From NCBI GenBank assembly GCA_949299755.1, contig CASGBA010000003.1:1-64000 (forward strand): 64,000 nt of DNA, in the 5' to 3' direction. The position numbers were made by a program, and so were the translations under genes. This document shows, in pieces, positions 52,694-63,403 of the stretch. The stretch comes from an uncultured Treponema sp. (GTDB lineage: Bacteria > Spirochaetota > Spirochaetia > Treponematales > Treponemataceae). Within the stretch, counting starts at the first letter, position 1. Every line of letters starts with the position of its first letter. The notes beneath the pieces were generated by a model, which saw only the letters and a list, made by a program, of their open reading frames with translations, was not told the origin of the DNA and searched no databases.

Positions 52694-54571
52694 ATGTCAA
52701 CTTTTTCAGGAATAGAGATGGGAAAACGCAGTTTATTTGCCCATTCCCAAAGCATCCAGACTGCCGGGCATAACCTGTCCAATTCTTCCACGGAAGGATA
52801 TTCCCGGCAGCGGGTTGAATTGAAAGCCACAGATCCGCTTTACAGACCGGATTTGTCCAGGGTTGAAACCCCCGGCCAAATAGGGCAGGGAGTTTCAATT
52901 GAATCCATACGGCGTATCAGGGATACCCTTCTGGATAAACGCATTGTGGCTCAGTCTGAAAACACTGGTTACTGGAATACCAGGAACCAATACATACTGA
53001 TGATGGAACAGGTTTACAATGAACCTGACGAAACCTCCCTGCGGACCAGGATGGATCAGTTCTGGGATGCCTGGGAAGAGCTTTCCCTATATCCGGAATC
53101 AAAGAGCGCCAGGCAGTCCATCCTTACCAGAGGGCAGACCTTTACGGATGCTGTCCACAACCAGTACAGGGCTCTCCGCGGCATAGGGGATATGATCAAC
53201 GGTGATATTGAGGCTGTGGTCAAACAGGTGAATGATATCAGCGGAAGGATTGCCGCACTCAATGAAGAGATTGTAAAGGTAAAAGCCATCGGCGACAATC
53301 CCAATGATCTTATGGACAAAAGGGATGTTCTCACCGAGCAGCTTTCAGAATTGATAGGGGTAACCTTCGATATCCGTGACAGGGATGAGGAATACGTTAT
53401 CCATGTTGACGGCTTTGAATTGGTCCAGGGAAAAACTTTCAGGACTTTTTCCCTGGCTTCCGGTTTTGAGAATGACGGTTATTACCGGGTTGTGTGGACA
53501 GGTACCGGAGAACAAGCCCGTTTCACCGGAGGAAAGCTGGGCGCCCTTCTTGAATTAAGGGATTCTGATATCCGGTCTGAAATACAAAATTTGGACACAA
53601 TGGCAATGAATTTCGTGGATTTAGTTAACAGTATCCATAGAAACGGTATGTCCCCCAACGGAAAAACCAATGTTGATTTTTTTGTGGAGCAGCATTTTAT
53701 AGAAAATGTCTCTGGAAACTATGACCGGAACGGAGATGGAGAATATGATTCTTCATATATATTCCGTATCAGCGGAGCTAACACCCTCTCCCCAAGAGCC
53801 CAGATTGGTTTGGAAGGGATTATGACCCTTTCCTCCCCGGAAGGACTTGTCCAAGTCCCCTATTATTCCACCGACATGGTTTCCGATGTTGTAGCCAGGA
53901 TAAACAATTCCGGGGCGGAGGTCACTGCCTCCCTGGACGGGGACGGACGTCTGGTACTCAAGGGTACATCAGCCCAGGATCCGGCCAACCCTGATTTTGT
54001 TATCCGTCATGTGGAAGACTCCGGCAGGTTTTTAGCCGGATATGCCGGAATTCTCGCCGGATACGGGCCGGAAAATGCTTATAACTGGGAAACAGCCGAT
54101 GCAGTTTTAAGTCTTGCCGGTGAAAATGTCCAATATGCCGTGGCTCCTGTGGCTCATCCTTCAGGCTGGATGGAAATCAACAGGGAAATAAAAGCCGATG
54201 TGAATACAGTGGCAGCCGGAAAAGCCGGGTATGACGGTGTAGCTTTCCCCGGTGACAATACTATCGCCAGCGCTATTGCCACCATCAGGAACACTCCGGT
54301 TATGGTCGGTAATACCAGAACCTTTGATGATTATTTTGCTGATACGGTTACAGCCATCGGTTTGAAAGGGGAGCAGGCTGAGCTTTCCCTGGAAACCCAG
54401 ACTGCGATAATGAAGGAGCTGCATGATACCAGGGACTCCATTTCCGGAGTGAATATCGATGAAGAGCTTGCTGATATTATAAAATTCCAGCACGGCTATA
54501 ATGCCGCCGCCCGTTTCATTTCCACTGTGAATGATATGCTTGACACAATTATCAACAGGATGGGAGTTTAA
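52694..54571 (+). CDS. flgK: Flagellar hook-associated protein 1
   Basis: 625 aa, junction between hook and filament. The N-terminal rod-like motif STFSGIEMGKRSLFAHSQSIQTAGHNLSN and a C-terminal helix DEELADIIKFQHGYNAAARFISTVNDMLDTIINRMG are typical of FlgK and form the coiled-coil export and assembly ends. The middle carries the variable domains. Preceded by GGGGG and read with flgN (27 bases apart) and flgL. Confidence 0.95.
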   Translation: MSTFSGIEMGKRSLFAHSQSIQTAGHNLSNSSTEGYSRQRVELKATDPLYRPDLSRVETPGQIGQGVSIESIRRIRDTLLDKRIVAQSENTGYWNTRNQYILMMEQVYNEPDETSLRTRMDQFWDAWEELSLYPESKSARQSILTRGQTFTDAVHNQYRALRGIGDMINGDIEAVVKQVNDISGRIAALNEEIVKVKAIGDNPNDLMDKRDVLTEQLSELIGVTFDIRDRDEEYVIHVDGFELVQGKTFRTFSLASGFENDGYYRVVWTGTGEQARFTGGKLGALLELRDSDIRSEIQNLDTMAMNFVDLVNSIHRNGMSPNGKTNVDFFVEQHFIENVSGNYDRNGDGEYDSSYIFRISGANTLSPRAQIGLEGIMTLSSPEGLVQVPYYSTDMVSDVVARINNSGAEVTASLDGDGRLVLKGTSAQDPANPDFVIRHVEDSGRFLAGYAGILAGYGPENAYNWETADAVLSLAGENVQYAVAPVAHPSGWMEINREIKADVNTVAAGKAGYDGVAFPGDNTIASAIATIRNTPVMVGNTRTFDDYFADTVTAIGLKGEQAELSLETQTAIMKELHDTRDSISGVNIDEELADIIKFQHGYNAAARFISTVNDMLDTIINRMGV

Positions 54572-54589
54572 AACTAGGAAGGTGATGAT

Positions 54590-55834
54590 ATGAGAAGAAT
54601 AAGTTCCAACATCCAACATACGGATTTACAGTATGCCCTGCGCCGGCACGAATCAAGACTCAGTACACAGAATAACCAGATAGCCGAACAGTCACGTATA
54701 TCGAATTTGCGGGATGACCCATTGGCGGCAGGACATTCAGTCCGTTACCGGTCTTATCTTGCCCGTCTTGAACGGTTTGACAAAAACGCGAAAACCCTGG
54801 CGGACAGATTCAAGGTTACTGAGGGATATATGAATAGTTCTCTGCAGGTTATCCAGCGTATCAGGGAACTGGCGGTCGCCGGCGCTAACGGAACTTATAC
54901 CCCGTCCGATTTGAAAAACATGGCTTCAGAGGTGGATGAGCTTTTAAAAGAGCTGGTAGTTAACGGAAATGCAGTGGGGCCTGACGGTGTGCGTGTGTTT
55001 TCCGGTTCAAAAAGCTTTACGGAACCCTTTGAAGTTGTTTACGGCGATGTGGACGGTGCCGGAAATCCTATAATAAAAGAAGTGCGCTATAATGGTTCCT
55101 TGGATACTAAAAGGGTTGAGGTAGATGAAACCGCTTTTTTGGATGCGGACTATGCCGGCAACCGAACTTTTTGGGCGGAACCCCAGAGTCTTTTTTCCCA
55201 GACAGACGCTACCGGTTACGTGGTTCCTGCGGATAGTTCCATAGAAATTGACGGGGTTGAAATTCCCCTGGCTGCCGGTGACACTGTTTACGCTATCATT
55301 TCCAAAATAAATTCTTCCGGGGCGGCGGTAAAAGCCACTTTGGATCCGGTTACCAACGGCCTTAACATAAGCACAACGGATTCCCGGCAATTATGGCTGC
55401 GGGATGTGGAGGGCTCCGGTGTTTTGTCTTCCCTGGGATTGATAAAATCCGGACAAAGACCTCCGTATAACATAGCTGACTCTGTGCGTGTTTCCGGTGG
55501 TTCCCTTTTTGATGCGGTGATTTCCCTGAGGGATGCCATGTTCTCCGGTGACCAGGAATCAATAGGAGGCCGGGTTCTCGGGGCCTTGGACGGTTCCGTC
55601 GAAAATCTTTCAGCCAGAATGGCGGAACTGGGATCAAGGTATGAAAGGGCTCAGGTTGTTTCCGCCCGCCTTGACAGGCAAGCCTTAAACACACAGGCGG
55701 CGGATTCACGGGAGTCGGATTTAGACTTTACAAAAGCTGTAACAGATCTTAAAATGCTTGAATATACTCATCAGGCTGCTCTCAGCACTGCCGGTAAACT
55801 GTATTCGAATACTCTTTTAGATTACCTGCGGTAA
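54590..55834 (+). CDS. flgL: Flagellar hook-associated protein 3
   Basis: 414 aa with GGAAGG upstream. N-terminal flagellin-like helix (RRISSNIQHTDLQYALRRHESRLSTQNNQIAEQSRI) and C-terminal helix ending LKMLEYTHQAALSTAGKLYSNTLLDYL are the FlgL terminal coiled coils. The central part (residues 140-330) is variable. Links FlgK to the flagellin filament. 18 bases after flgK. Confidence 0.94.
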   Translation: MRRISSNIQHTDLQYALRRHESRLSTQNNQIAEQSRISNLRDDPLAAGHSVRYRSYLARLERFDKNAKTLADRFKVTEGYMNSSLQVIQRIRELAVAGANGTYTPSDLKNMASEVDELLKELVVNGNAVGPDGVRVFSGSKSFTEPFEVVYGDVDGAGNPIIKEVRYNGSLDTKRVEVDETAFLDADYAGNRTFWAEPQSLFSQTDATGYVVPADSSIEIDGVEIPLAAGDTVYAIISKINSSGAAVKATLDPVTNGLNISTTDSRQLWLRDVEGSGVLSSLGLIKSGQRPPYNIADSVRVSGGSLFDAVISLRDAMFSGDQESIGGRVLGALDGSVENLSARMAELGSRYERAQVVSARLDRQALNTQAADSRESDLDFTKAVTDLKMLEYTHQAALSTAGKLYSNTLLDYLR

Positions 55835-55849
55835 TGATAAGGTGGAAAA

Positions 55850-56302
55850 ATGGAAATTCAAACAAAGGCAATGGGAACTGTTTCCATTGTGGAAAAACAG
55901 ATTATTCATCTCAACGAAGGTTTCCTGGGATTCCCGGGATATCATGATTTCGCGTTGATAGATGCCGTTCAAAAACCCTTTGTATGGGTGCAATGTCTGG
56001 AGGATGTGAATTTAGCTTTCCTGGCGGTGGATCCTTTTCTTTTCAGGGCTGATTATGAAATAAACATCGATGACGCTGATGTTGCGGCCTTGAATGTGGA
56101 ATCTCCGTCTGATGTTTTGGTTTTTGCCCTTGTAACCATTCCTTCCGACGGTTCTCCTGTAACCGCGAATTTGCAGGGCCCCCTTATTATAAACAAAAAA
56201 AATAATAAGGCTATGCAGGCTATTCATCCTGACCCCAAATGGAACACCAAACATGATATTGCGGCTGAATTGGCTGCCGCACGGGAGCGTCATCCATGCT
56301 GA
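55850..56302 (+). CDS. fliW: Flagellar assembly factor FliW
   Basis: 150 aa with GGTGG upstream. FliW family motifs: [51 protein letters not shown], and [25 protein letters not shown]. In Bacillus, FliW binds flagellin and CsrA, and frees CsrA when flagellin accumulates. Overlaps csrA by 7 bases, so both are made together. A target flagellin leader with a CsrA-type hairpin lies at 63.4 kb. Confidence 0.93.
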
Positions 56303-56517
56303 TTCTTTCACGTAAAGTTAATGAAAAAATAATGATAGGCGATGACGTGGTTTTGACTATAATTGAAACCCGTGGCGAACAGGTTAAAATCGGTGTGGAA
56401 GCCCCAAAATCCGTAAAAGTCTTCAGACACGAAGTATTTGAGGCTGTACAGAAGGAAAATAAGGCTGCAGCGGTTTCTTCCGAAACTTTGAAAAATCTCC
56501 CGGACATAAAGCTATAG
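56296..56517 (+). CDS. csrA: Carbon storage regulator CsrA (RNA-binding)
   Basis: 73 aa. [24 protein letters not shown] is the family N-terminus (RNA-binding strand beta1), and [26 protein letters not shown] completes the core. CsrA dimers bind GGA in hairpin loops and block translation. It is coupled to FliW, which antagonises it. The start overlaps fliW. The C-terminus is about 10 residues longer than in E. coli (61 aa). Confidence 0.95.
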
Positions 56518-61931: not shown

Positions 61932-62279
61932 TTAAATTGATTCGTCAAATAAGAGTCCGAGTGTCTCTTTTATCCTTAACTGGAGTCTTTGAATTTCCGC
62001 CGAAGGAATTTCCCTGATTACTTTATCGGTAGAAGAATCTATTACTTTGACAATAACTCTGTTTAATTCCTTACTGACATGAAATTTCAATTCCCGGTTG
62101 AACATATCCGCTATTTTCTGTATTTGTTCAACCGCGGCGGAAATATCCATTTCTTGTTGAACCGCCTCCGGTTTTTTTTCTTCGGCAGGCTGAATCCGCA
62201 CTGAACCGTTCGGTATTTCTTCTACGCGGCGATCCATTGCCGTCAGTTGCTGCCCGATGCCTGTAATTTCCATACTCAT
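61932..62279 (-). CDS. flaG: Flagellar protein FlaG
   Basis: 115 aa from ATG 62279, with GGAGG six bases upstream. The C-terminal core LKFHVSKELNRVIVKVIDSSTDKVIREIPSAEIQRLQLRIKETLGLLFD is the FlaG family motif; its N-terminal half is charged and variable. FlaG influences filament length and sits before fliD in many bacteria. An inverted repeat at 62329-62354 lies in its leader. Confidence 0.9.
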   Translation of the reverse strand: MSMEITGIGQQLTAMDRRVEEIPNGSVRIQPAEEKKPEAVQQEMDISAAVEQIQKIADMFNRELKFHVSKELNRVIVKVIDSSTDKVIREIPSAEIQRLQLRIKETLGLLFDESI

Positions 62280-62498: not shown

Positions 62499-63353
62499 TC
62501 ACTGCATCAGTCTGAGAACTGACTGCGGCTGCGTATTAGCTTGTGCAACCATTGCGATGCCGGCCTGGCTAAGGATCTGGTTTTTGGTGAAGTCTACCAT
62601 TTCCGCAGCCATATCGGTGTCCCGGATGCGGGATTCCGCTGCCTGCATATTTTCTGCGGCAATTGCGATTCCATTATAAGCCATCTCAAACCTGTTCTGG
62701 TATGCACCGAGATCGGCACGCTGTTTGTTGATGGTTTTCAATGCGGAATCGAGAGCCGCTATGGCCATATTAGCGCCTTCAACAGATGACAATGAAATCA
62801 TAGAATCTTCCGCTCCTTGCGCTCCAGTAAGACCGAGAGCTGTCGCTGTCATAGTCCCGATATAAATTGTTTCATTCTGGTCGACGTTGGCGCCGATATG
62901 AAGTTGCATCGGTCCCATGGCGGAATCACGGGCAAAACGTCCTGTAAGAATATTCATCCCGTTGAATTGCGCGTGGCTTGCAATGCGGTTGACTTCATCC
63001 ACAAGCTGTGAAACTTCCACCTGAATCTGCATTCTGTCTTCAGCTGAATAAATTCCGTTTGCAGCCTGGATTGAAAGTTCGCGGAGCCTTTGGACAATGT
63101 CCGTCGTTTCCCCCAGATACCCTTCAGTAGCCTGGATAAACGAAACTCCGTTTTGGATGTTTTCACCGGCTTGATTGAGACCACGGATTTGTGTCCTCAT
63201 TTTTTCGGAAACAGCAAGTCCGCTGGCATCATCCCCGGCGCGGTTAATCCTCTGACCGCTTGAGAGCCGCTCGATGTTGTGCTGCAATCCGCTTTCAACT
63301 ACAGAGGACTGCCGCTGGGCATACATAGCGCTCAAATTGTGGTTGATAACCAT
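62499..63353 (-). CDS. flaB: Core flagellin FlaB
   Basis: 284 aa from ATG 63353, with AGGAGGG seven bases upstream; the frame open further upstream to 63608 is leader. N-terminus [52 protein letters not shown] and C-terminus [42 protein letters not shown] are classic flagellin ends that form the filament core (quoted as the family hallmarks). The central region is short, as in spirochaete FlaB. FlaB is exported by the flagellar type III system and makes the filament core under the FlaA sheath. One of at least two tandem flaB genes here. Confidence 0.96.
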
Positions 63354-63360
63354 ATTTTGA

Positions 63361-63403
63361 CCCTCCTTGAAGATTCTTCCGGTATGCATTCCTTGCATTC
63401 CGG
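63361..63403 (-). promoter_or_regulatory. Predicted CsrA-type hairpin and Shine-Dalgarno in the flaB leader
   Basis: On the minus strand CCGG-A-ATGCA-AGGAA-TGCAT-A-CCGG (63403-63379) folds into a 9-bp stem with an A-A mismatch and exposes GGA in its loop. The Shine-Dalgarno AGGAGGG (63367-63361) also holds GGA, about 20 bases downstream. Two GGA sites, one looped and one over the ribosome site, are what CsrA needs to bridge and block a message. CsrA and its antagonist FliW are encoded in this window. Binding is inferred. Confidence 0.6.

Follow-up and report, generated by a model that had tools for sequence, protein, structure and literature searches.

The control of flagellin synthesis by CsrA has been described in several bacteria. 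For Bacillus subtilis the circuit is well established: CsrA blocks the ribosome site of the flagellin gene hag, and FliW antagonizes this activity (PMC7652899). The same source reports that the CsrA homologue RsmE prefers hairpins with an ANGGAN hexaloop and that extra loop bases can reduce the affinity (PMC7652899). In Campylobacter jejuni, the flaA leader carries two ANGGA stem-loops, one of them on the ribosome site, and compensatory changes are seen between species; moreover, flaG is a further CsrA target, the flaA mRNA titrates CsrA from flaG, flaB, and flgI, and non-flagellated species are devoid of csrA and fliW (PMC4894983). For the spirochaetes, it has been shown that Leptospira CsrA binds flaB leaders, and gel shifts revealed that GGA is needed in the case of flaB3 (PMC8668096). 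The repression of flaB by CsrA in Borrelia is cited in PMC3757020. For Treponema denticola, PMC9481697 mentions CsrA sites in the vicinity of the flaB1 and flaB2 ribosome sites as well as the gene order flgN-flgK-flgL-fliW-csrA.

Here, we have analysed a stretch of 64,000 nucleotides from an uncultured Treponema sp. (contig CASGBA010000003.1, positions 1 to 64,000), referred to as the window, and our analysis indicates that the leader of its flaB gene is very probably a translation switch controlled by CsrA. The gene (62499-63353, minus strand, ATG at 63353-63351) encodes a core flagellin of 284 amino acids with Flagellin_N and Flagellin_C domains and is the second of a tandem pair; among named organisms, the protein has its nearest relatives in Brucepastera and Treponema putidum, in addition to many bins designated 'Spirochaetales bacterium'. 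Upstream of the ribosome site lies a hairpin with a candidate CsrA site, BS1 (63403-63379, minus strand; CCGGAATGCAAGGAATGCATACCGG), in which CCGG and AUGCA pair with UGCAU and CCGG around the loop AGGAA, i. e. four pairs are separated by an A.A mismatch from five further pairs, which close a loop that contains the ANGGA motif. If the closing A-U pair is open, the loop reads AAGGAAU. The folding energy of a 31-base piece with this hairpin is -12.4 kcal/mol (z -3.83), and none of 200 shuffled sequences was equally stable. The GGA of the loop (63392-63390) is separated by 23 bases from a second GGA (63366-63364) in the Shine-Dalgarno sequence CAAGGAGGG (63369-63361, minus strand), which overlaps a second ANGGA motif, BS2, and which begins nine bases after the end of the stem. 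A GGA-loop hairpin ahead of a flagellin ribosome site that also holds GGA had been noted in the preliminary description of this DNA, and both the sequence and the fold are as described there. A promoter similar to those recognized by sigma-28 (TAAAGTTT-N11-TCCGAATA, 13/16 match) is present before the first flaB gene of the pair (G000:C3:64746-64720, minus strand, outside the window); directly before the window flaB, no match to a sigma-28-like promoter was found.

The flaB hairpin goes beyond chance because versions with different stems recur at each of the three core flaB genes in this genome and throughout the relatives. The three core flagellin genes are the window flaB, one just upstream (the first flaB of the tandem pair, starting at C3:64593 just beyond the window), and a third on a different contig. 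Their leaders present the motif on differing stems (AUGCAAGGAAUGCAU, GAAAGCAAGGAUGCUUUC, and CGGCAGGGAUGCCG), and the loops are ANGGA or AGGGA. Across 450 kb of the genome with 232 genes, strong GGA-loop hairpins in which A comes first were found only before the three flaB genes, before flaG, and at one weak AT-rich site. Among the relatives, 108 of 158 flaB leaders contain a stable GGA-loop hairpin (shuffled sequences: mean 7.7, maximum 19), and GGA is the commonest of the 64 possible loop trinucleotides in these leaders. With a simple rule, the hairpin is found in 55 of the 77 usable named relatives. An A precedes NGGA in 109 of the 115 loops selected by a scan that did not require this base. 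Moreover, in a set of 38 distinct hairpins all eight stem pairs vary on both sides, and the covariation score is 0.957 as compared to 0.290 after shuffling and no more than 0.203 when the partners are slid. Since these 38 hairpins had been picked by their stem score, the unbiased test is the one based on the motif only: here, every ANGGA located 30-70 bases before the start was considered in 153 distinct flaB leaders with the stem ignored in the choice, and ANGGA sites with a stem of at least four pairs amount to 95/153, as compared to 8/78 for NGGA without the preceding A and 4.9% for other positions. The simple p-values that we computed disregard how closely the genomes are related and serve as a guide only. 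Conservation in relatives had been named in the preliminary description as the touchstone for the stem as well as for the loop, and it was found for both: covariation preserves the stem, and the flaB leaders retain the ANGGA loop.

A covariance model (R1) that comprises the hairpin, the spacer, the ribosome site, and the start was run across the phylum. All 20 strong matches that we fetched from families outside the window's own correspond to flaB leaders, each with an ANGGA-loop hairpin; for one of them (L232), the start codon is unresolved. The strong matches listed score 33-61 bits, and the best matches in 11 flagellin-less genomes score 18-29 bits. The model was discarded as a finder of further targets: the weak matches, both in this genome and in those without flagellin, owe their scores to the ribosome site and the start codon. 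Because such weak matches are ribosome-site matches, the tally of 276 of 296 genomes at E<=0.1 is not meaningful, and we have used the strong, inspected matches instead.

The ribosome site itself is conserved in a peculiar form: it reads CANGGAG in 114 of the 153 flaB leaders, with the N being free (CAUGGAG in 60, CAAGGAG in 34, and CACGGAG in 14), whereas CA occupies this place in 17 of the 167 genes of the window's genome that have a GGAG-type ribosome site. Judged by its sequence, the flaB ribosome site has the form of a CsrA-type motif and not that of an optimal ribosome site. A candidate second hairpin that exposes the ribosome site in its loop was found in 67 of 132 leaders (permutations: mean 36, maximum 48), a suggestive number that is confounded by the conserved sequence; a hairpin around the flaB ribosome site is only weakly supported.

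Some flaB paralogues lack the site, or their loop is short of one G. In several genera, a third flaB has no GGA hairpin (L025, L043, L045, L052, L055, L064, L069, and similar leaders), while its counterparts elsewhere have one. In a group of second flaB leaders, the stem is kept with the loop ANGA rather than ANGGA (L015, L020, L021, L071, L091, L094, L098, L289 of T. bryantii, and L311 of T. parvum). In this group, the stem of the second flaB has 9-12 pairs and is found at the same place, the first flaB retains ANGGA, and an upstream hairpin with the loop sequence GGCGC, which is discussed below, is retained as well.

Both potential regulators are encoded in the window, as the preliminary description had already pointed out: fliW (55850-56302, plus strand; PF02623, E 3.5e-37) encodes a protein of 150 amino acids and overlaps the start of csrA (56296-56517, plus strand; PF02599, E 7.2e-24), which encodes a protein of 73 amino acids with a C-terminal extension. 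The two genes are present side by side as single copies in the genome, and their overlap of seven bases suggests that their translation is coupled. They are part of a flgK-flgL-fliW-csrA cluster (52694-56517), and the place of flgN ahead of flgK is taken by an open reading frame of 166 codons without a Pfam match. Read from its sequence, the window CsrA retains L4, R6, and R44, which we take to be the RNA-contact positions. Residues 2-68 of CsrA can be aligned to chain 5dmb_D and FliW to chain 5dmb_A of the solved FliW-CsrA complex, and by these alignments and its C-terminal extension the window CsrA is predicted to be of the FliW-binding kind. Of the 138 relatives with flagellin, 126 have CsrA, and all 11 relatives without flagellin lack it. 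FliW follows the same pattern with near-perfect co-occurrence, and its gene adjoins csrA. In one genome that is 99% complete (G009), flagellins and the hairpin are present and csrA and fliW were not detected; perhaps this reflects an assembly gap.

The preliminary description had likened the leader to that of hag with its control by CsrA and FliW. This reading is supported by what is observed: the hairpin is conserved by compensatory changes, ANGGA is present both in its loop and in the ribosome site, the 20 strong matches fetched from other families are all flaB leaders, the genes for the regulators csrA and fliW lie side by side, and CsrA is co-inherited with flagellin. Given the precedents in Bacillus, C. 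jejuni, Leptospira, and T. denticola (PMC7652899, PMC4894983, PMC8668096, PMC9481697), a mechanism of the hag type, a comparison that we take from these papers, is the best reading. We infer that CsrA binds and represses flaB, that FliW antagonizes CsrA, and that flagellin feeds back on this control. In such a switch, one RNA-binding face of the CsrA dimer would occupy the ANGGA in the upstream hairpin loop and the other face the ANGGA of the ribosome site, and the bound dimer would block the entry of the ribosome to flaB. FliW would remove CsrA unless FliW is held by unexported flagellin, and flaB would be translated only during flagellin export. Since the conserved hairpin is of the kind bound by CsrA, the cell can probably shut off the production of flagellin until it is required. 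Several points count against the switch: the size of the loop in the window, with five or seven bases, the paralogues in which the site is missing or the loop has lost a G, the genome G009 with its hairpin but no detected csrA or fliW, and the weak support for a hairpin around the ribosome site.

The gene next after flaB is flaG (61932-62279, minus strand, start at 62279; PF03646, E 1.9e-24); like flaG, fliD is located downstream of flaB in the window. The scan of the 232 genes revealed a candidate CsrA-site hairpin before flaG (62327-62304, minus strand), in which UUCCGUAUC and GAUGCGGAA enclose the loop ACGGAU, and this is the second-best GGA-loop hairpin ahead of any of these genes in the 450 kb. 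Eight relatives of several genera have it on different stems and a ninth has a weaker form, whereas in other clades a G+C-rich hairpin that resembles a terminator occupies this position. We consider the flaG hairpin as a likely second CsrA site within this cluster of genes. A terminator scan lists it as terminator-like because it is followed by ATGTTTCTCC; the conservation of the loop argues against the idea that it is solely a terminator.

The CsrA hairpin of the window flaB forms the end of a larger structured leader (63474-63375, minus strand) that resembles the Termite-flg motif (RF01729). In a permissive Rfam search with cmscan, the match scores 23.8 bits (E 0.02 for a stretch of 211 bases), and a stricter search of the genome with RF01729 did not list the window leader. 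As the match remains below the gathering score of 40 bits, we do not file the leader under RF01729; the architecture is nevertheless alike. The window leader has the GGCGC apical loop and the 3' GGA-loop hairpin before a flagellar gene that characterize RF01729, and the 3' hairpin of the RF01729 consensus, with its loop aGGAUa, aligns to the CsrA hairpin of the window. In relatives, all four RF01729 matches above the cut-off are located before the second flaB of a pair, and all four have an ANGGA-loop hairpin. The upstream hairpin of the window (63443-63420, minus strand) presents GGCGC (63434-63430) in the loop AGGCGCUU. In 33 of 36 second-of-tandem flaB leaders but only 4 of 36 first-of-tandem leaders, GGCGC is found 74-97 bases before the start, and a flanking stem of at least eight pairs is present in 26 of 58 leaders with the exact GGCGC as compared to 3.5% of control positions. 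The arms of this hairpin are complementary yet wholly different between genomes with the loop being kept; thus, the GGCGC hairpin is a second conserved RNA element. The preliminary description mentions neither this hairpin nor the flaG site nor the similarity to Termite-flg. A single-sequence fold agrees with a multi-stem fold that encloses GGCGC, whereas an alignment of the flaB2 leader sequences yields no consensus fold, the variability of the arms being too great for MAFFT. Where PMC2864571 lists the Termite-flg motif, it is assigned to the termite hind gut only, and the main text of that paper states no role for CsrA. It is tempting to speculate that in the Treponematales the leader of the second flaB is a regulatory RNA made up of two parts and that Termite-flg represents its form in the termite gut: the 3' hairpin might be the CsrA site and the GGCGC hairpin a separate control element that is read by some protein or signal and that is kept even where the loop of the 3' hairpin has decayed from ANGGA to ANGA. 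We put this forward tentatively, with less than even confidence.

Other explanations for the conserved hairpin have to be weighed against a CsrA-controlled switch. The two hairpins might together constitute an RNA of the Termite-flg type, with the GGCGC domain acting as a sensor of a second signal or protein and gating both the CsrA site and the ribosome site. The RF01729-like match as well as the GGCGC loop with its varying complementary arms in second-of-tandem leaders fit this idea, and so does the retention of GGCGC in several genomes in which the hairpin loop has lost its GGA. However, no ligand or partner of such a domain is known, and most first-of-tandem and third flaB genes do without it, so the GGCGC domain is not needed for the CsrA site. 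We consider the idea less likely than not. The flaB leader might also act mainly as a sponge, with the abundant flaB mRNA drawing CsrA off weaker targets such as flaG and the repression of flaB itself being secondary. The titration of CsrA by the flaA mRNA in C. jejuni provides a precedent, and with three flaB leaders and flaG this genome has the sites for it, but the ribosome site carries a second, conserved ANGGA, which speaks for translation being controlled directly. Such a main role as a sponge is unlikely, even if both roles can coexist.

Finally, the hairpin could do no more than stabilize the RNA, terminate transcription, or serve as a stand-by structure for the ribosome, with an incidental GGA in its loop. 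Stable intergenic hairpins are indeed common, and this one sits in the gap of a tandem pair. Yet the A-N-GGA loop is kept while the stem varies, and GGA loops far outnumber those with other trinucleotides in flaB leaders, making this explanation very improbable. The possibility of an intrinsic terminator was rejected, as no U tract follows the flaB hairpin and it is absent from the output of the terminator scan.

Taken together, the leaders provide strong evolutionary evidence that the control of flagellin by CsrA and FliW is the ordinary, and probably ancestral, role of CsrA in spirochaetes, bacteria with internal flagella that are built from several flagellins. Moreover, they offer a concrete explanation for a part of the orphan Rfam motif Termite-flg, and they predict which flagellin paralogues are controlled and which have escaped. 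These predictions are testable in T. denticola.

The comparison with the known systems reveals both shared and distinct features. As for B. subtilis hag, there are two CsrA sites, one of them on the ribosome site of a flagellin gene, and csrA and fliW are present (PMC7652899). In contrast to hag, sites are found here at three flagellin genes and at flaG, and the leader contains the additional conserved GGCGC hairpin. The window leader shares with C. jejuni flaA the two-site ANGGA layout and the compensatory changes; in both cases, flaG is a further target, here by its candidate site, and csrA and fliW are missing where flagella or flagellin are absent. However, the flaA leader has only 45 bases and no GGCGC domain, and its hairpin at the ribosome site is clear whereas that in the window is weak. 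With respect to RF01729, the position before the second flaB, the GGCGC loop, and the 3' hairpin are shared, with NGGAU in the hairpin loop of RF01729, and it is the score below the gathering threshold that sets the window leader apart. Borrelia, Leptospira, and T. denticola belong to the same phylum and have the same flaB gene, and the gene order around fliW-csrA in the window is that of T. denticola; the literature cited here for these three does not describe the upstream hairpin with its covariation, nor its spread across the phylum. Thus, a CsrA switch on flagellin is of a known kind, described for Bacillus, Campylobacter, Borrelia, and Leptospira and already hinted at for Treponema, and what is new is its breadth with the underlying covariation, the site at flaG, and its connection with a larger Termite-flg-type leader.
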